Shown piece by piece: positions 15,086-49,437 of a stretch of DNA of 64,000 nt. The notes beneath the pieces are model-generated. The model saw only the letters and a list, made by a program, of their open reading frames with translations, was not told the DNA's origin and did no database searches. How positions within the stretch are numbered: the stretch's first letter is position 1; each line of letters opens with the position of its first letter. The stretch is from Pholiota molesta (Eukaryota; Basidiomycota; Agaricomycetes; Agaricales; Strophariaceae), in NCBI GenBank assembly GCA_014925825.1, contig JACGCK010000004.1, positions 372,001 to 436,000 of the forward strand, given 5' to 3'. The position numbers and the translations under genes were made by a program.

Positions 15086-17498
15086 TTATGTCCGAAGGAA
15101 TCTAGTGAATGCATTTTGCACATTAACCTTCTTCATAATCGTTGGCTCAGGCGCTAAAAAATCAATTTAGTCAGATTGAGAGAAACACTAAAGAAATACA
15201 CTTACGATCCGTCAATCCTTCATCCTTGACTTTCCGCTTTATACTATCCATGATATCACTGACAGTTGAACGATCGAAATCGCTTCGCGACTTCATCAAA
15301 CCCTCCACAAATGCGATGTTGGGTCCGTGTACCTTTGCGAATGACCAGAACGAAAGGAAGGCAATATCTTTGGACGCTTCAAGCATAGAAAGGATCATCT
15401 CGAGGACTTGGAATCGAGCCTCAACGTCGGCAGCAGGGCCAAAGTAACGAAAAAGGCGTAAGCTTCGGTGATGTCCTCTTTGAAACGTTCTGCCGCTGCG
15501 GGCATCTTGAGTTTCGGAGCATTGGCAAGTGCATTGAGGTAGGTGAGAAGAAAGTTGTCCATAAGGTCTTCTACGAGCAAGTCGAGTAAACTGAGTTGAG
15601 ATAGCTTTGGTAGTCGTTCATGTAGTCCCGCATTGTTTCTACAATTTGGCGCATAATGCCATCGTACCAAGGAGGTTGAAAAAGGTTCTTCGTTGCAGGT
15701 TTGAGATCGTTGAAGATAGTGTCTATGAGCGTTTGCATACACTTCTTGGCAATATCCAAATAACCATCGATAGCATTGTTGAGGCGTTCATTGATCTGTC
15801 CTTGGTATTTCGCTGAGACCAAAGGTTCTACACGGGCCAGCAGTGCTTCGCCGAAATCGGCAGACTTAATCTGATCGTTGGCGAGAGCGATGCAGTATTC
15901 CACAAGACCACCTGTGGCCTCTTCTGGCTTTTCGATCTGCTTTTTGAATTCCGCATCCACGACTTTCGCCCACTGATCCTGGATACCTCGCATAACACGA
16001 TTGGTTTCGCTCACAACACGAGCCAAAATCGCTCCTTGTCCACTCTCTGTCGCCAGGTCAATTTGTTGATTAACCATTTGGAACAGAATGACACCTCCTT
16101 GTGTGCCATAGAGACCGTCACTGTCGATCTCTGGAGGTTGCTCGCGTTTGATGAATTCCGCGACCTCGGTTTTCATGAGGTTAGCGGACCATTCATCTAA
16201 TTTCTGGATAATGAGTTTAACATAGTCTTCGATGAGTGCCTGCTCTTTTCCATCCAGTAAAGGCGGTTCAAGTAGCTCCGGAGGAACATCGAGCTCCTTC
16301 ATGCTGCGTTTATATTCTTTCAACCACTCGAAAAGGGACAGAAGGACGCTCGCGTCCGACTTCATGCCGGCTATTGTCTTGACCACAGAATTGAGCGCTT
16401 TGTGGTATTCGCGGAGATATAGTGAATATATTTCGTAGTCGGCTGGAAAACATGGGACGACATCGGTCTCAACGCGATAAATGTCTTGTAAAAGCCATTT
16501 CATTAGATCTCCAAGGAAGGCGACAGGATTATCTTCTGAGCGTTTGTATGCGTCTTGAACCTTTTCGTGAATAGACTGAGTAATGGCCTTGATGATCTTA
16601 GAGCGGTAGTGTTTAAGGACTCGAGCATCCGCTTGTAAAGACTTGAATTTGAGCGCAGCATCTAGCTTCGCCGCTTTCTTCACAAATCGCATGACGACCG
16701 TCTACAGAAGTAACACAGCGTATGTCAGTGCATGTCCAAGTATCATTTGAATGCACGTACCTTTTCATCTTCCTTTCCTTCGACCTCAGCTACTTTGAGC
16801 ATTCTAACGACGACGTCGGCATACCCTCCACGAATGAGATTCAAGACGTTCGAAGCAAGTTTGAGTATGTATTCGTCGAACTCAGCTATGAGCTTGTTTA
16901 GACGCTCAAACCATCTCGTCAAGGTGGCCTGAGAGCTTGGAGATGCCTTCTTAGCTTGATGCATCGTGGTGTTCCTGAAGCGCTCCAGCTGATTGAGCTG
17001 GAAATGGATAACCAGAAGATTAGGCGCCGGGCCAATAATATCTCTGCTATCTGCAGCGAGCATTTGTTCCAGATCATCCAATTGGGATGCCATATCCAAG
17101 AGATTATTGACCATCTCTTCTGTCGATTCGAAGTTGCGGTGGACTAGGGAACCTATAAAGCCTTCGGTATGCTGACGTGAGGGCGACATCTGAGTGCTTA
17201 CCCTACTGATCTGGTCGAACGTCGCAACACGAACGGACGGATCGTCGCATTCTTTCTCGATAGACATCATTTCGTCCTTGATAGCTTGTACATTATCCCG
17301 AGTGCTCAGAAACTTTCTGAGTCCTAGTCTTGTAGCTTGTAATTGTTCTTTAACGCCGTTGTTTAACCTTGTGTCTATCGACGCTTTCTCCTTCTCGAGT
17401 TTCTTTCGGAATGCAGAGACTTTAACGAGATCATCCGGCGACTGTAAGTATTCACCAATAGCCTGTGCTGCAGACACAGGACCGACAGGAGCTGCCAT
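15086..17498 (-). CDS. SEC6: Exocyst complex subunit Sec6
   Basis: Sec6 (human EXOC3) is a CATCHR-fold helical-rod subunit of the exocyst, which tethers secretory vesicles to the plasma membrane; in yeast it also binds Sec1 and the SNARE Sec9. Three exons: 17498-16761, 16701-15206 and 15153-15086, with introns of 59 and 52 nt. Recognisable parts are the N-terminal coiled coil, SFRK-like IEKECDDPSVRVATFDQIS, and the long domain with FKSLQADARVLKHYRSKI, DDLMKWLLQD-type and YCIALANDQIK segments. Exon lengths total 2,302 nt; two frame breaks near 15,600 and 15,441 each need one base, giving 2,304 nt and 767 residues, as expected for fungal Sec6. The start codon is 141 bp from the COQ6 start on the other strand. 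Confidence 0.93.
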
Positions 17499-17639: not shown

Positions 17640-19621
17640 ATGTCCTTGACCGCGACCTCCATAAAAGCCAGTCGCGCTGGCCTGAATATCCTTAAATACT
17701 CGATTACTGCTCGCAGAAGAAGAAGATACTCGACTGATGCCACTTCCGACACTCTAGAAAGCGATGTCGTCATTGTAGGGGGTGGACCGGCAGGACTCGC
17801 CCTTGCGAGCGCGTTAGGTATGGTTCTCGTACAAACTGCAGAAACAATATTGAACAGGTAATAGGATCATCTCCATATCTAAGGGAAAACATCAGCATCA
17901 CCCTCATTGAAGGTGGCGATTTGAGCAAGCTCAAAGCTTGGACCCCAGCACCGGGAACATTTTCCAATCGTGTGGTCTCTCTCACCAATGCATCGCAGGC
18001 TTTCCTAAGAGGTAGCAAGGACTTATTAAAGGTTAAATTACCCCTCACTCTTTTGCAGATATCGGGGCATGGTCGTATGTCGATGAAGGGCGGACTTGTG
18101 GAGTGGAGCAAATGCAAGTAAGCACCATATGTATTTGAGTGCAGAGCCAAATCTGATTATTACTACAGGTATGGGATGGCGTATCAGATGCACGTATAGA
18201 ATTCTCTGCTGCTGAACTGGGACCGCAAGTAGAACATTCAGGGATGTCTCGCCTGACAGAAAACTTCAACTTGCAAAGAGCACTGTTACGACAACTGGAT
18301 TCCATTCCCGAAGTCAATCTTCTACACCAGACAAAGGTTGTTTCCATCACAAACGACTCAGAAGAGAGAGGAGGCTGGCCTTTAGTTCATCTGGACAATA
18401 GCAAAACTATTAGAGCGAGGTTGCTGGTAAGACCAAAACGTTATTTCATTGTAAACTTATTGGCTTATATGCTCCCTAGGTTGGCGCCGATGGCTTTAAT
18501 TCTCCCGTTCGGTCGTTTGCCAAAATACCATCATATGGTTGGGCATACAATACTCAAGCAATTGTAGCCACCATGAACCATCCTCCACGCGGTGCTTTCC
18601 AGGGCCCAAATACAACAGCATATCAACGCTTTTTACCAACAGGTCCAATTGCGTTTCTCCCTCTTTCCTCCACTTCTTCTTCCCTTGTCTGGTCAACGAA
18701 GCCCCAGCTCGCTGTTGCTCTTCTCGCCTGTGATCCTGACGTCCTTGCCAGTATGATCAATGCTGCATTCCGGCTTCCTGACGTTTCAATGAAATTCTTG
18801 CATAAACTGATTCTCGACCGCCACACAAGCGGATCACCTATCTCACCCAGCGAAATTCGTGAAGAAATTAGTTGGCGCGAGCAAGCCCATGCGATCGACC
18901 AGAACTCAGCATATGCTTCAGCTTTGGTCAAATCCACCCAAGTTGGAATTCCACCTGCAGACTCCGAATCCGTTCCTCCTCTGGTCACTGAAATTCAGCC
19001 TAAATCGGCGGCATCATTTCCTTTACGCTTTAATCATGCTGAAGCTTATATCGGCGAAGGCACTGGCGCACGAACGGTCCTCGTAGGCGATGCCGCTCAT
19101 ACTGTCCATCCCTTAGCTGGTCAAGGTTTGAATCTTGGCCTAGCTGATGCGGAATGCCTTGCGAAATGCATTGAAGACAGCTTGCTTACAGGTGGCGATA
19201 TTGGCGAGTCTTATAGGTTGACAGTCCCACAGTCGATGCTAACATCTTTATTTCGGTTGCCGTAGGCTCTTACACTGCGCTCCTGCCGTATACCCAAGAA
19301 CGATACCTTGCAAATCATACTCTCATGTCCGCATTCGACAAACTTCACAAACTCTATTCGACTGATAGTCAGCCTATTGTCTGGGCTCGATCAGTCGGCC
19401 TAGAGGTTTTGAACGAGCTTGATGCAGTCAAAGCAGGTATTATGATGACGGCGGGTGCTCAGACTACAAGAAAGGCTTCTCCAGGATCTACAGGATGGAT
19501 TTTTGCGGGAAACGCTGCCCAGACGCTAGCATCCACAGTACATACAGCTGGAATCATGAAGGGGGCGATTGGGAATGTCGTTGGTTCGGCTATGAGGACT
19601 TTGATCGAGAAAGCGAGATAA
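17640..19621 (+). CDS. COQ6: Ubiquinone biosynthesis flavin monooxygenase Coq6
   Basis: Coq6 hydroxylates the C5 position of the coenzyme Q head group at the mitochondrial inner membrane. The N terminus is basic and Ser/Ala-rich, fitting a mitochondrial presequence. The FAD Rossmann motif DVVIVGGGPAGLALA follows, then NRVVSLTNAS, VGADGFNSPVR, and the second FAD motif VLVGDAAHTVHPLAGQGLN. Exons are 17640-17817, 17865-18011, 18059-18117, 18169-18426, 18480-19203 and 19266-19621. They sum to 1,722 nt and translate without any break to 573 residues, somewhat longer than yeast Coq6. The last intron (19204-19265) appears to use a GC donor (GCGAGT) with a normal AG acceptor; this splice restores the conserved GDIGS segment. 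It is divergent from SEC6. Confidence 0.93.
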
Positions 19622-33400: not shown

Positions 33401-34017
33401 TCGGTATCCAGGCAAAGATAGAAAGGCTATGTGTTATGCATGATTTGAAAGCTATCTAATGGACATATACGGGTTTCAAAGTTGGCTGATTAGGATAGAC
33501 CGACTTTTGTGGCGAAGTATGAAAAGGATTCACAACAATTAAACTCTTAGTCACTTTACCGTCGGGTCATAACGAGAAGTTGTGGAAAAATATGCGAATT
33601 TGAAGGCAATTCACGCGCCTAGTAATTCGACATTCTACTAGATTCAAATTCTACAGAAGCAGGAGCTGATGAAAAGATTCATTTTTGACATCATAACCTC
33701 GTCGTCACTCGCACAGCTGAAATTTGAATGCGGCGTGAGAGAATATAATGCTGGAATAACATAGAATACCATCCGGACGATATTCTGCGAAATATGGATT
33801 GAGATATGAAGGATTTGTGAAGGATAGCGAGCGCCGCTTGAGTGCCGCGCATCAAACATGACGTCGAAAACTCGGGCACAAATGAGCGCTTTTGATTGGC
33901 TTTTGATGCGCCGTATTTTAAGTAACCGACTTTGGCTCTCTTTGGCTGGCATGGCAAGTGAGAATCCTTATGTCAGCCTTGAGTTTCCCCATTTCTCTAA
34001 CTCCATCCAAATCGCAA
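27419..34017. other. Gene desert left of the fold-back element
   Basis: About 6.6 kb with no gene I can support. Open frames are short, compositionally odd and without family motifs or splice logic. Small tandem units occur near 28,925-28,950 (GAAGCCC-like heptamers) and 31,100-31,125 (CTCGAGCACT repeats). No transposase or reverse transcriptase motif was seen. Confidence 0.5.
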
Positions 34018-34025
34018 TCAAATCC
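34018..34025. repeat. Left 8-bp target site duplication
   Basis: ATCAAATC directly precedes the left terminus (CACCTGCCA) of the fold-back element and is repeated exactly at 36517-36524 after the right terminus. Confidence 0.85.
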
Positions 34026-35234
34026 ACCTGCCATACCCAGCTGTTTGGTCTTATTAGACGGGAACAGAACGTCCCTGTTCGTGTCTAAATTGACCCAAGA
34101 CGTACCTCCACCCGCTAGGGGCAATAACTACCCAATAATTACCTTCAATTCCCCCCAAGTCCTGTCCCACGCGGTAACCCGGTAACCGTGGAGCGGGACT
34201 ATTCCCACAATCCCTTCCGGGCGTGTATCCGGCATCAACGCCCCCTCGCGCGCGCGCATTGCCTATTTTGGGTGCGCGCATCACCCGCTGATGCCACCGT
34301 CGCGTCCCGCCCTCTTGCCCGCTGGTGCAGAGAATGGGCTCTAGCTCAGTCCATTTCCCTTCGTTCCTTTCGCTTTTTGGCATATAGGTAGATATAGTAT
34401 ATAGGAGTTAGTATATAGTGTTTTAATGTGAATATATATGCTATTATCCATCAAAATAGAGATATCTCATACAGGGGAAGGAGGACGACTGCCAGGTATA
34501 TGCCTGGAACATATGGGAGGCTATATATCAAGCTGGGGATACTATCTACACTATAATGGGGGGTATTATACTGAGTTAGAGCTTCCCAAGTGTTGCCAGA
34601 AGTGACCCATGGGGAGATCTAGAGGGAGGGTGTCATAGGGCAAGAAAGTAACATGTTCCAATGCTCTCAGTATCAATTCAATAGCTGTACATGGTGTATT
34701 CTACCTATATAGCTTCATATCTGCAGCCAGATGTGCCACAGACACAGTCAGCCCTCTACTATTGACTCATCTACCTGGTGATACATTGGATCATATCTCA
34801 GCACCAGGGAGAGATATCCTCCTAATCTCTTTGGATTAGGGCTCCCCCAGGTTATATCTATCTATCCCTATCGCAATAATATAGCTAAGAAGGTTGGAAC
34901 ATATGGATAATGGTACCTGAAAAGGGCCTACATGCAGGTACCCATATATAGGGTATAGAAAATTATTTGGGCATATATCACAATGTAGAGGGGTACTATA
35001 CCATACCTACATTGATTCCATGGAGTAATAATGATACCTTGCAGGTGGAACTGGGTCATGAGGAGGTGAGACATGCCAAACACGTCTAAAGGACGTATTC
35101 GGCCTATAGCATTACAAGTAGGCGGTCTAAAATTCTGTAAAGCTAGGGTATGATAGCTCTAATGAATTCCTACAGAATGAGATAGGCCGGAAGGTAATCG
35201 AAACAGTGGGTAGAAAGATATGTTGGAAACATTG
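34026..35234 (+). repeat. Left arm of the fold-back inverted repeat
   Basis: Reverse complement of 35317-36516. The first ~200 bp (to about 34,224) carries many substitutions and small indels relative to the right arm; from the GTGTATCCGGCATCAACG stretch inward only scattered mismatches are seen. Confidence 0.88.
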
Positions 35235-35316
35235 GTTAGAATATCGGTCTAGATCAAGCATAGCTGGGGCAGTTATGTGCCTATGATTGGATCAGTGTTA
35301 AAAATGATGTCCTTTA

Positions 35317-36516
35317 CAATGTTTCCAGCATATCTTCTCACTCGCTCATTCGATTATCTTCCGGCCTATTTCATTCTGTAGGAATTCATTAGAGCTATCA
35401 TACCCTAGCTTTACAGAATTTTAGACCGCCTACTTGTAATGCTATAGGCCGAATACGTCCTTTAGACGTGTTTGGCATGTCTCACCTCCTCATGACCCAG
35501 TTCCACCTGCAAGGTATCATTATTACTCCATGGAATCAATGTAGGTATGGTATAGTACCCCTCTACATTGTGATATATGCCCAAATAATTTTCTATACCC
35601 TATATATGGGTACCTGCATGTAGGCCCTTTTCAGGTACCATTATCCATATGTTCCAACCTTCTTAGCTATATTATTGCGATAGGGATAGATAGATATAAC
35701 CTGGGGGAGCCCTAATCCAAAGAGATTAGGAGGATATCTCTCCCTGGTGCTGAGATATGATCCAATGTATCACCAGGTAGATGAGTCAATAGTAGAGGGC
35801 TGACTGTGTCTGTGGCACATCTGGCTGCAGATATGAAGCTATATAGGTAGAATACACCATGTACAGCTATTGAATTGATACTGAGAGCATTGGAACATGT
35901 TACTTTCTTGCCCTATGACACCCTCCCTCTAGATCTCCCCATGGGTCACTTCTGGCAACACTTGGGAAGCTCTAACTCAGTATAATACCCCCCATTACAG
36001 TGTAGATAGTATCCCCAGCTTGATATATAGCCTCCCATATGTTCCAGGCATATACCTGGCAGTCCTCCTCCTTCCCCTGTATGAGATATCTCTATTTTGA
36101 TGGATAATAGCATATATATTCACATTAAAACACTATATACTAACTCCTATATACTATATCTACCTATATGCCAAAAAGCGAAAGGAACGAAGGGAAATGG
36201 ACTGAGCTAGAGCCCATTCTCTGCACCAGCGGGCAAGAGGGCGGGACGCGACGGTGGCATCAGATGGTGATGCGCGCACCCAAAATAGGCAATGCGCGTG
36301 CGCGAGGGGGCGTTGATGCCGGATACACGCACGGATGGGACTGTTCCCACAGTCCTCTCCGCTGTCACCGCGTGGCACGGGACTTGGGGGAATTAGAGGA
36401 TAGTTAATGGGTCGCTATTGGGCCTAGCAGGGGAAACGCCTAGTTGCGTCAAATTAGAAGGGAACAGGGCTTTCTGTTCCTGTCTAACATGACCAAACAG
36501 CTGGGATTGGCAGGTG
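35317..36516 (-). repeat. Right arm of the fold-back inverted repeat
   Basis: Reverse complement of the left arm. It carries a mirror copy of the same 70-110 residue open frames that start MPKSERNEGKW on the left arm (minus strand) and here (plus strand from 36168). Confidence 0.88.
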
Positions 36517-36524
36517 ATCAAATC
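36517..36524. repeat. Right 8-bp target site duplication
   Basis: Exact copy of ATCAAATC at 34018-34025, immediately following the right terminus. Confidence 0.85.
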
Positions 36525-45895: not shown

Positions 45896-47542
45896 TTAAT
45901 ATTCCGCTGGGTTGACCGTGACTGACATCAGAGAGCCGTTATCATTACGGTGCAAGACATGCTTCACGCCTTGGGCCTGTTGGATATGCGTTTTGATCGT
46001 CAGTACCGTGAGCTGGGGGCAGGCGTTGGCGATAGGCACGAAGTCGTCCGCAGACAGGGCGCCGTCTGTACGCATAGCGTCCAGGGTTGTGTACGGAAGG
46101 TGTGCGCATTTGATAAGATTGTAAGGGGCCAACGCCTCAGCAAGGGACCACTGCAATTAAAAACAATCGCAGTATGTCATCAGTAATAGTATCGCATGGA
46201 TTGTACATATTTAAATCAATCAAATACGTACCGGCGAAACGACACCCAGGTGCCCTGACCAGGTAAGCACTGCAGGGAAGTACGCCCCTAGCTTCTGCAC
46301 CCACTGCACCGCACAGGACCCAATCTCGTCAAACGCCCCGCTGAAATACACCCCAAGCTCCTGCACGAACGGGAAGCCCGCTGAGCCCCCCAGCGCCATC
46401 AGCAGCTCGACGACCGCGCCCTCGCCTCGCCCTGGCCGCGCTCGCAGTAGTACGCGAGCGTCAGCCGCGTGAGCCTCTGCAGCGCGCGCACGCCCTGCGC
46501 GAGCATCATCGCCACGTTCGCGGGGTGCGTCTCGAGGCTGCGCAGCGCGGGGAGGAAGCCTGGCGCGACGCGCGCGCCGCTGCCGCTGATGCCCTCGTAC
46601 AGGCGCGCGAACTTGGTGCTCGACTCGAGCGCGACGTGCGTGAGCTGCGGATGCGCGGTGAGGAAGTCGGTGAGCGCCCGCTTGGTGTCGCGGTGCCGGA
46701 CGTTGATGCGCTCGGGGTAGAGCAGGCCGATGTTGCAGGAGGTGAGGTTGGGAAAGTGGAGGCCGAGAATGGTCATCCAGGTATCCATGTCGTTGAGCTT
46801 TTTTATGATGGGATATCCGGGACAAGTGGGAAAGGAAAGGGTGGTTAGAGTGTTTGCGGAGGCCACCAGAAGCGAGAGGCATTGGGGTTCAGGAGAGGAG
46901 GCTTCACAAAAAATCTCAGAGTCAAAGGGAGCACAATAGGGAGAGATAAAGTTTCAACGCACATATGTAATGCGGCCAAGAGACACTCTCCAATCCTCGG
47001 ATGTCAAACGAAGGACCAGGGAACGCAGTAGGATAATGTGGGACATAGGTGAACCCTTTAAGAGCACGAGAGCACTGCCCAATTATCTCAACGAACTTCA
47101 TCTGCTCTTCCTGGAGTATAAACGGGCACCCAATAAACGTCAGTGAGCGCAAGTTCGTAAAGCGTGCAAACACATCGAAATCCAGCCACGTCGTCGTGGG
47201 CACCCCAGGCATCCATGGTGTCCAGGCAGTGAAAAAAGTAGCATGTCTAACAGAGCTCGCTAGGCCGTTGATATGTTTAAGCACATTGAGGGTATATGGA
47301 TAGGTCTGGTTATCGTTGCGCAGAGTCAGAGAGCGATAGATAGTAGAACGACATATTGGGAGGAAGGTCGTCGAGACACGAGCGGTGCGTGTTAGGTCTC
47401 CAGAGGAGAGGTAGGAGAAGACAAGAGCCCAGATCTCGAATGGCAAGCGACGCTGATGCGCGTTCTGGTCAACATTCGCCAGCACCCTCGCCTTGCCCTT
47501 TCCCTTTCTTCCCAGTCGACTGGAAGAATCCATGGCTGACAT
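45896..47542 (-). CDS. F-box/LRR-like protein
   Basis: A minus-strand F-box gene. The N terminus is basic (GRKGKGKARV); the F-box follows (RRLPFEIWALVFSYLSSGDLTRTARVSTTFLPICRSTIYRSLTL) at about residues 30-75. Leucine-rich segments follow: LRSLTFIGCPF, TLTTLSFPTCPGYPIIKKL, LPALRSLETHPANV, RLTRLTLAYYC and CPQLTVLTIKTHI. Introns are visible near 46,970-46,915 and near 46,225-46,155. A frame break near 46,430 (one G missing in RGQGE) separates LAYYCERGQGE from VVELLMALGG. The segment 46,390-46,740 is far richer in GC than the rest of the gene. It ends NPAEY. Probably an SCF adaptor by family; the substrate is unknown. Confidence 0.8.
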
Positions 47543-47914: not shown

Positions 47915-49030
47915 TTACTTTCCACCAGTAGTGCCCATGCCCATGGCGCTCTTGAACGAGTCGTAGATCCACCATTGGAAGCCAGTGAGAGTACCGATCA
48001 TGAGAACCCTGGTGCCGAGACCCTTGGTAGCAATGTTGGCGACACCAACCTCGCCAATGATTGCACCGAGCGACTTGCCCTTGTTGGAAACCTTGCCGAG
48101 TTGCGAAACGAGGGAATCAGCGGGGTGGGAGACGATGGCACAAACAACACCAGCGAGGTAACCAGAGGCGAAGGTGACACCGAGTTGAGTTCCCTTGCCG
48201 TAGGATTCCTTGGGTTCAGTGAAGACCTTGGTGTAGAAGAGCTGGACAATCTTCTCGAAGAAGAAGAACTTGGCCATGGTGTAGGGGATCTGGTGGAGCA
48301 TTGCGTGAGTATGAATGTTTATGATGCAACTAGATAGAGATATATACCTGGCGCGACCATAGAGGAACGAGAGAGCCGAAAGGGAAGCGGGTTTCGATCT
48401 TGGTGCGGGACATTTGGCTGAGAGCAGCGCCGAAAGCAGTGGGGAAGGTACCGGTGGGGGAAGTTTGGATCTTGACCTTGGTCATTTCGAAGGGGCAAAG
48501 AGCGACATCGGCGAAGACCTCGGCGGAAGCAGAACCAGCGAGCCAGATGAGGGGCTTGTACTTGTTGGAGAGCTCTTCACCAGCAAGGTTCATGTATTCA
48601 TCCTTGAAGACCTCGTAGAGGCCGTACTTGAACATTCCCTGGAGCGAGTAACCGACGAATGTGGGGCCGACACCTTTCCAGATACCCACTGCTCCCTCCT
48701 CAGCGATGAGAGTCTTCAGGGAAGCCCCGAGACCTTTGTATTTGACCGGGTCGACCTGTTGAAAGAAGCACGATAAGAAAAGAGAGTGACGCGACGAGAA
48801 TACCAACGAACCTGCATGTTGCACTTTGCGACATCGAGGGGGGTGATACCTGCGTGTGTAACACCGCAGGCGAGGACACCACCGAGCATGCACTTGGCAT
48901 AGTAAGAGACGTCATGGGGCACAGGCCCAAGATATCTGTTGCACAACGCACGAGCGGCTGTCAGGACGGAGAGCAGAGACAAGAAGGCGAGCCATGCATA
49001 CCTAGCATCCCATTTGGTTGGAACAGACAT
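47915..49030 (-). CDS. MIR1: Mitochondrial phosphate carrier
   Basis: A SLC25-family inner-membrane carrier that imports phosphate for ATP synthesis. Exons: 49030-49002, 48935-48812, 48755-48348 and 48289-47915, with introns of 66, 56 and 58 nt. They sum to 936 nt, an unbroken frame of 311 residues, normal for the family. The three carrier repeats show their signatures: [20 protein letters not shown] and [15 protein letters not shown]/Mir1 identity is supported by [39 protein letters not shown], and [21 protein letters not shown]. Codon bias is strong and GC-rich, consistent with high expression, which creates long antisense shadow frames. It is head-to-head with RIB3. A Pic2-type paralogue cannot be fully excluded. 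Confidence 0.94.
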
Positions 49031-49234
49031 TCTAGGAGATATATGGCCAATAGACAAGTCTAGAAGGCAAGGGGTGGCCTGTGTCGGAGGAGGAGAGAGA
49101 GGTGGTTTGAGCGTGCCAGCTGGCCCCGAAATACAAAAACTTGTGTTAACCGGCTCCTTCCGTGTTGAGCCGACCCAATCCCGTGGCGCACGTACAGCCG
49201 GCCCGCTCCCCGCGCACCACTGACGATGCCGCAC

Positions 49235-49242
49235 TGACTCAT
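49235..49242. promoter_or_regulatory. AP-1/Gcn4-type site between MIR1 and RIB3
   Basis: TGACTCAT, continuing as ATGAGT so that two half-sites overlap, lies between the divergent MIR1 and RIB3 start codons. Gcn4/AP-1-type bZIP factors bind this heptamer in fungi; binding here is inferred. Confidence 0.3.
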
Positions 49243-49437
49243 GAGTAAATATACCATCCACCATTCCCAGATGCCTACACCACGGATCCAGAGCACCAGC
49301 AGCCCCGTCGGTACTGGCAATGCACAGACGACACGGAACTTTGTCAGCCAGAGCTTCGGCTTACTTGGAACCGTCATGTCACGGAATTTGCAAGATCACT
49401 TGCTTGATCACGGTTTTTATAAATCTCCCACCCGGAA

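Follow-up and report, generated by a model that had tools for sequence, protein, structure and literature searches.

A palindromic fold-back transposon of Pholiota molesta with KDZ-type ends and a core shared with other palindromic elements

In the 64,000-nucleotide stretch of Pholiota molesta DNA analysed here (the window), positions 34025-36516 are occupied by a palindromic fold-back element of 2492 bp. We are confident that it is a non-autonomous member of the KDZ superfamily, most likely moved in trans, whose two arms would pair and exchange sequence. The most surprising result is that the core of the arms is shared by elements with different ends, which for the families named C, D, F and H below is judged from termini and duplications. 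This shared core merits follow-up.

Structure and boundaries of the element

The termini of the element are CACCTGCCATACCC... on the left and ...GGGATTGGCAGGTG on the right. On both flanks we observed a perfect 8-bp direct repeat, ATCAAATC (34017-34024 and 36517-36524); by simple arithmetic, a single 8-bp match arises by chance about once in 65,000. When the element was compared with its own reverse complement, one alignment spanning all 2492 bp was obtained, with 92.9% identity. Complementarity reaches 97% between the inner arms, 1050 bp each (34196-35245 and 35306-36355), which enclose a centre of 60 nt, and the two outer arm pairs show complementarities of 73% and 86%. The G+C content is 45.7%, compared with 46.0% in the surroundings.

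Read from left to right, the element begins with a tip of type X (34025-34156, forward strand) that is similar to KDZ terminal inverted repeats. A connecting stretch (34157-34255, forward) leads to the noncoding core of the left arm (34256-35245, forward), which is common to fold-back families B-F and partly to H and G; the border of the core is unsharp and lies at about arm position 205-232. The self-alignment places a central loop of about 60 nt at 35246-35305. The right core (35306-36285, reverse strand), which is the reverse complement of the left one, is followed by a second connecting stretch (36286-36385, reverse), delimited by the self-alignment and the core alignment, and by a tip of type Y (CACCTGCCAATCCC... 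read inward; 36386-36516, reverse), recognised by comparison with KDZ ends.

Long inverted arms, a short middle, noncoding sequence and duplications at the flanks are all present, as in the fold-back class. A preliminary description of this locus had already taken it for a well-bounded non-autonomous fold-back transposon with reverse-complementary arms and a perfect 8-bp duplication. The full-length self-alignment bears out the arms, the further copies and transposase-encoding relatives described below bear out the transposon, and the bounds stand except for the left coordinates, which were off by one base.

Nine reading frames of the window were scanned for domains. The recognisable ones are an exocyst Sec6 frame (15574-16692, reverse), a FAD-binding/squalene-epoxidase-like frame (18573-19262, forward), an F-box frame (46925-47542, reverse) and a mitochondrial-carrier match (48719-49264, reverse) that stays below the cut-off.

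Copies of the element and empty sites

The genome searched comprises 65.58 Mb in 625 contigs; the copy number given here is a lower bound, as scoring covered 40 of the 113 candidates. We found at least five full-length copies (family A), namely that of the window (C333:406025) and four others, 94-99% identical, on contigs C329, C336, C1 and C212. The preliminary description had proposed to look for more copies sharing the termini and the 8-bp length of the duplication, and at least four are thus present. All five start with CACCTGCCA and finish with TGGCAGGTG, and each is flanked exactly at its termini by a perfect duplication of its own (ATCAAATC, GATAGATT, TACTTGGC, CACATCAA and CTAGAAAC).

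For each copy, the 90-bp flanks of the two sides were joined with one copy of the target and run against the genome. Unoccupied sites were detected in this way for three of the five copies, with matches of 96-98% spanning the join: the empty site of the C329 copy lies near C478:181035 (the match contains 7 extra bases, away from the site), that of the C336 copy near C444:360795 and that of the C1 copy near C293:2385. They contain a single copy of GATAGATT, TACTTGGC and CACATCAA, respectively, without footprint, and probably represent the other haplotype. No empty site was found in the assembly for the window copy and the C212 copy. The element is real and recently mobile: a misassembled inverted arm, which nothing suggests beyond the general risk that long palindromes carry, can be dismissed in view of five loci with differing flanks and duplications, copy-specific variants in both arms and clean empty sites for three copies.

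KDZ elements with the same ends

A search with the terminus pattern CACCTGNCANNCCC gave 44 places; with the pattern reversed, as a control, it gave 28. Fold-back families A and B account for 16 of the 44 with their ends, and apart from these, inverted pairs within 10 kb occur at just two long elements, C333:1020631-1029019 and C152:31212-39442, where inverted CACCTGCCANNCCC pairs lie 8.4 kb and 8.2 kb apart, respectively. The same two elements were found with the outer 200 bp of the fold-back element (87% and 73-74% over 131 bp). An independent search of the genome for the KDZ domain PF18758 produced 128 matches, and both long elements contain one (C333:1026274-1027053 and C152:36720-37511); given 119 candidate places spread over 65.6 Mb, about 1.5% of 8.4-kb stretches drawn at random would include one. 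The longer transposase-encoding relative with the same ends that the preliminary description had suggested looking for therefore exists twice in this genome.

The C333 KDZ element measures 8389 bp, with 532-bp terminal repeats that are 99.6% identical and the duplication CATGGTAG. Its KDZ domain is distributed over two adjacent frames (E values of 8e-25 and 6e-46 with Pfam); the transposase reading frames are split, by an intron or by decay. CxC1/CxC2 matches in its frames are weak (E value of 0.04) and fall below the cut-off. The C152 element, of which the ends and the KDZ gene region were read, has a terminal repeat of at least 389 bp (99.7% identical) and the duplication TTGAGCAG. The transposase regions of the two elements share 81% identity at the DNA level.

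KDZ transposase is thus abundant in this genome. Six places score almost equally (one each on C332, C259, C612 and C62, two on C226), each with one in-frame TGA within the matched stretch, which suggests recent copies or a common intron. A 7.4-kb JGI contig carries the record of a protein with 100% identity to the C333 KDZ frame, and among the best 120 of 221 relatives of this frame, those named by organism come from Mycena (two) and Tricholoma.

The termini, the 8-bp duplications and the KDZ-encoding partners place the window element in the KDZ superfamily and not in hAT or Merlin, the two groups that the preliminary description had considered from the length of the duplication. An 8-bp duplication does fit both, and CA..TG termini also occur in hAT elements. 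However, the transposase of both long elements that share these termini is KDZ, and none of the 11 C333 reading frames scanned with Pfam contains a hAT, Merlin or MULE domain; a hAT or Merlin fold-back is very improbable, and the earlier guess is not supported. Mutator-like elements have 9-11-bp duplications and a MULE transposase; here the duplications are of 8 bp in all five copies, beside the lack of a MULE domain in those frames.

KDZ (Kyakuja-Dileera-Zisupton) is a superfamily already described; 8-bp duplications are given for Zisupton and for a Dileera element, and a 7-bp duplication with CA..TG ends and no terminal inverted repeats for Kyakuja (PMC12730594, Kojima 2025). The 8-bp duplications of the five copies and of both long KDZ elements are as in Zisupton and Dileera. 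With Kyakuja, the CA..TG ends agree, but not the 8-bp duplications or the 389-532-bp terminal repeats of the partners. By duplication length and terminal repeats Zisupton or Dileera is a better fit than Kyakuja, and since Kyakuja is reported with 7-bp duplications and without terminal repeats, membership is stated at the level of the superfamily. For the fungal elements KDZ1-3, terminal repeats of 139-241 bp are reported, with duplications of 8 bp for KDZ1 and of 4-8 bp for KDZ2 and KDZ3 (PMC12810828).

Two types of tips

The ends of the five copies fall into two types, X (CACCTGCCATACCC) and Y (CACCTGCCAATCCC), which are 77% alike. Over 132 bp, X is 87.3% identical to the terminal inverted repeat of the C333 KDZ element (86.4% with another aligner) and 74.1% to that of C152, so that X is clearly closest to the C333 element. 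The first 14 bases of Y are identical to those of the C152 KDZ element; over about 131 bp, Y shows 79.3% identity to C152 (75.6% with MAFFT) and 74.3% to C333, and in a longer gapped alignment 60.6% and 58.3%, respectively. From these alignments Y appears slightly closer to C152, by a small margin, and it is about as near to X as to either KDZ element. The window copy and those of C329 and C212 carry one tip of each type, the C336 copy has Y at both ends and the C1 copy has X at both ends.

Beyond the outer 132 bp or so, none of the arm sequence is present in the C333 KDZ element. The window element is therefore not a simple internal-deletion derivative of the latter. Moreover, as the end match reaches only 87% for X and 76-79% for Y, neither of the two sequenced KDZ elements need be the actual helper.

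Homogenisation and probable exchange between arms

In family A, arm distances were measured between arm positions 231 and 1040. Within the C212 copy the arms are 0.63% apart, yet their distance to any arm elsewhere in the family is 3.8-4.6%. The C329 copy and the C1 copy each have identical arms, and those of the C336 copy are 0.12% apart, while the family A copies other than C212 are 0.5-1.1% from one another. The exception is the window copy, where the distance between arms (0.5%) equals its distance to the C329 copy. At arm positions of about 1000-1200 and in the loop, most arms cluster by side rather than by copy, and this includes C336 and C1. In three copies the X tip and the Y tip remain distinct. 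Compared with the window copy, the loop of the C212 copy is inverted relative to the tips.

The same comparison within and between copies was made for three other families. In family B (L013-L015), the arms of L013 are 2.0% apart and differ by 9.5-10.6% from the others; in L014 and L015 the distances within copies (1.3 and 2.8%) and between copies (1.9-4.2%) overlap. In family D (four of the seven fetched copies compared), arms within a copy are 11-13% apart and arms of the same side in different copies 2.8-6.1%; as the arms of a copy differ more from each other than from the same side of other copies, there is no homogenisation in this family. In family G, for which 6 of the 16 fetched loci were compared over the 900 nt adjoining the centre, four copies resemble D (11.9-14.7% within a copy), but both arms are of one type in L040 (2.6%) and both of the other type in L043 (1.1%). 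Family A thus shows conversion of an arm to the type of its partner in two of five copies, affecting the tips and most of the arm, and family G shows it in two of six.

Nature of the core

Several readings of the core were considered and set aside. As to a coding function, no frame with an ATG, GTG or TTG start exceeds 109 aa in the element, mismatches in six family pairs follow no three-base rhythm, and the longest stop-free run in nine cores is 117 codons. Rfam gave no match at E values up to 1 and ARAGORN detected no tRNA in the element. One block, GGGCTCTAGCTCAGTC, resembles by eye the motif of a tRNA A-box, a likeness that is otherwise unsupported; its GGGCTC is invariant in 19 aligned rows from families A-F and H. 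In a search for conserved RNA structure over 15 windows of the nine-core alignment, with a loose column shuffle as control, one z score of -3.9 and two near -2.2 were obtained, which we do not regard as a sign of structure. Indels seemed unusually few, four core pairs having 34-92 substitutions for each indel; the controls gave 61 for the C333 and C152 KDZ terminal repeats, 46 for the KDZ gene region and 9-32 for others, and we regard the low indel rate as a weak curiosity. The transition/transversion ratio is 0.9-1.6 for all but two of the 36 pairs, which have 0.69 and 2.14; there is hence no clear excess of transitions, and this ratio gives no indication of RIP-like divergence. The best conserved outer-core block, GAGAATGGGCTCTAGCTCAGTC...TTTCGC, lies at about 34330-34390 of the window and in its mirror.

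A different role for the palindrome would be that of a source of hairpin transcripts, kept for RNA silencing of the KDZ elements that carry the same tips; the Mu killer locus of maize is the comparison model for such hairpin-fed silencing of transposons. Near-perfect inverted arms around a 60-nt loop would indeed form a long hairpin if transcribed, and the tips match KDZ ends. However, the core, which makes up the bulk of the element, has no relation to the C333 KDZ element, and most small RNAs would therefore miss their KDZ target. We consider this putative role improbable.

A core shared with other families

Between about arm position 205-260 and the centre, the similarity of the arms extends to other loci, most of them palindromic. 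When nine cores from families A to E were aligned, identity between families was 63-84%. The core recurs with other termini and with duplications of 8, 9 and about 5-6 bp. Family B (L013-L015; core identity 80-81%) has ends CACCTGACA and the 8-bp duplications CGCTACCA, CTCCCCCG and CCTCAGTG. Family C (L016; 74%) has TACGG..CCGTA ends and a 5-bp direct repeat, CATGG; scans of its ends for exact repeats of 8 and 9 bp gave no match. TAYGG..CCRTA ends and 6-bp duplications are described for IS3EU (PMC12730594). Family H (L031), with fragments of the core, also has TACGG..CCGTA ends, with 6-bp TATCGT. Family D (L018-L024; 73-75%, 4.9-5.1 kb) ends in CGAGTATC..ATACCCC and contains 38-bp tandem arrays, and 8-bp duplications are found in the five copies where both ends are readable (L019, L020, L021, L022 and L024). 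Family E (L025-L028) has arrays similar to those of D and one D-related end (CGGATATC). The two copies of family F (L029 and L030) contain parts of the core, and their 9-bp duplications, TGGAAATGT and GGGCGCAGA, exactly bound their mutual homology. In family G (L032-L047), only the centre is shared (75-79%), within other palindromes, one of which reaches 3.69 kb at C179; the ends of G were searched for and not found. With the central 368 bp as query, further loci appeared among 96 candidates, 40 of which were scored.

The palindromic unit of the 38-bp tandem arrays (ATCCAGTG...CACTGGAT) was read in L019 and L026, and sequence resembling it lies beside the core in the remaining D and E loci; judged from sequence, these repeats could be transposase-binding arrays. 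At C179:350300-354800 (L071, L033 and L072), the G palindrome is flanked by CTGGCTGG-rich repeats. L017 (C49:34462-35578) is a remnant with one full arm and a part beyond the centre, without the second arm.

No transposase-encoding partner was found for families B, C, D and F by their tips, or for D and E by their end pattern. The B tip has 13 matches, which outside B lie only on C49, C615 and C79, contigs without a PF18758 match; the C tip has no match beyond the two ends of the one C copy; the D tip occurs in the seven fetched D copies and at one more place, on C96; and the F tip occurs at two places, which are the two F copies. None of the 15 places with the D/E end pattern is within 10 kb of a PF18758 match.

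Since the core recurs with different termini and duplication lengths, it may be a module that crosses transposon groups. The core palindrome could itself be mobile, or the remnant of a mobile element, and be nested in short KDZ-derived elements and in other transposons. This would account for the presence of the core, or of part of it, in seven other groups (B-H, with related ends in A/B and D/E), and for an outer border at about arm position 205-260 in six groups. On the other hand, this border is not one sharp position, the tips are homologous and equidistant on the two sides, which is what a joint inversion of tip and core would give, and an unsystematic look for a target duplication at this border revealed none. 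Such a nested insertion seems to us rather unlikely. We tentatively propose, short of even confidence, that the core is a transferable noncoding palindromic module that has moved between superfamilies, with conversion from arm to arm and tips gained by recombination. The vehicles of this module would be the KDZ-type family A and probably B, the IS3EU-like single copy C, the 9-bp F and the terminally unrelated 8-bp D.

Proposed mechanism

A KDZ transposase supplied by elements like those of C333 and C152 would recognise the outer 130 bp or so, and the palindrome would be moved in trans by cut-and-paste. Inside the element, the arms could pair, as a cruciform or during repair after excision; such pairing would lead to conversion, flipping of the loop and swapping or duplication of tips, and would keep the palindrome intact. 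The core may have come to lie between KDZ ends by nested insertion, by recombination between palindromes or by template switching.

Comparison with known systems

The window element shares its 8-bp duplications with the KDZ elements KDZ1 and Zisupton-1_PGr (PMC12810828, PMC12730594). KDZ1-3 of Cryptococcus likewise have terminal inverted repeats, of 139-241 bp (PMC12810828), and the two long partners found here carry the KDZ domain. It differs from fungal KDZ elements in that it measures 2.5 kb instead of about 9-11 kb, encodes nothing and is palindromic almost from end to end. The preliminary description had suspected an undescribed family: the superfamily is described (PMC12730594), but no KDZ fold-back was found by title in the literature searched, mostly outside subscription journals, and the word foldback has no occurrence in PMC12730594 and PMC12477816.

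Fold-backs have been described in the Mutator superfamily and in the P superfamily, and most appear to be Mutator, with exceptions (PMC4079207). Tetris of D. virilis and the Mutator-type fold-backs are, like the window element, noncoding with long inverted arms; their duplications are of 8-10 bp and that of the window element of 8 bp. Tetris was placed in Mutator without a transposase-encoding partner (PMC4079207), whereas KDZ-encoding partners exist here. A KDZ fold-back accompanied by such partners in one genome would extend the fold-backs to a further superfamily and would be a tractable fungal case.

Galileo and Newton of Drosophila, of the P superfamily, are likewise fold-backs with long inverted arms (PMC2775673). 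In two Galileo copies the arms are more than 99% identical within a copy and about 7% different between copies, as family A is homogenised; two further copies are chimeras, and the middle segment is found in either orientation. The likeness of arms within a copy is therefore not new in kind. These elements differ from ours by a P-superfamily transposase and 7-bp duplications, in place of KDZ and 8 bp. With homogenised families (A and part of B) beside families with distinct arms (the four D copies and four of the six G copies compared), and with copies in A and G that were converted to a single arm type, palindrome conversion becomes measurable.

Finally, according to Kojima 2025, TET/JBP genes are passed passively between fungal transposon superfamilies (PMC12730594), a sharing of passengers comparable to what we observed here; the passenger is a gene in that case and a noncoding palindromic core of non-autonomous elements in ours. 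With a core carried by elements of different ends, passenger DNA would be shown to change vehicles between superfamilies, as for TET/JBP.
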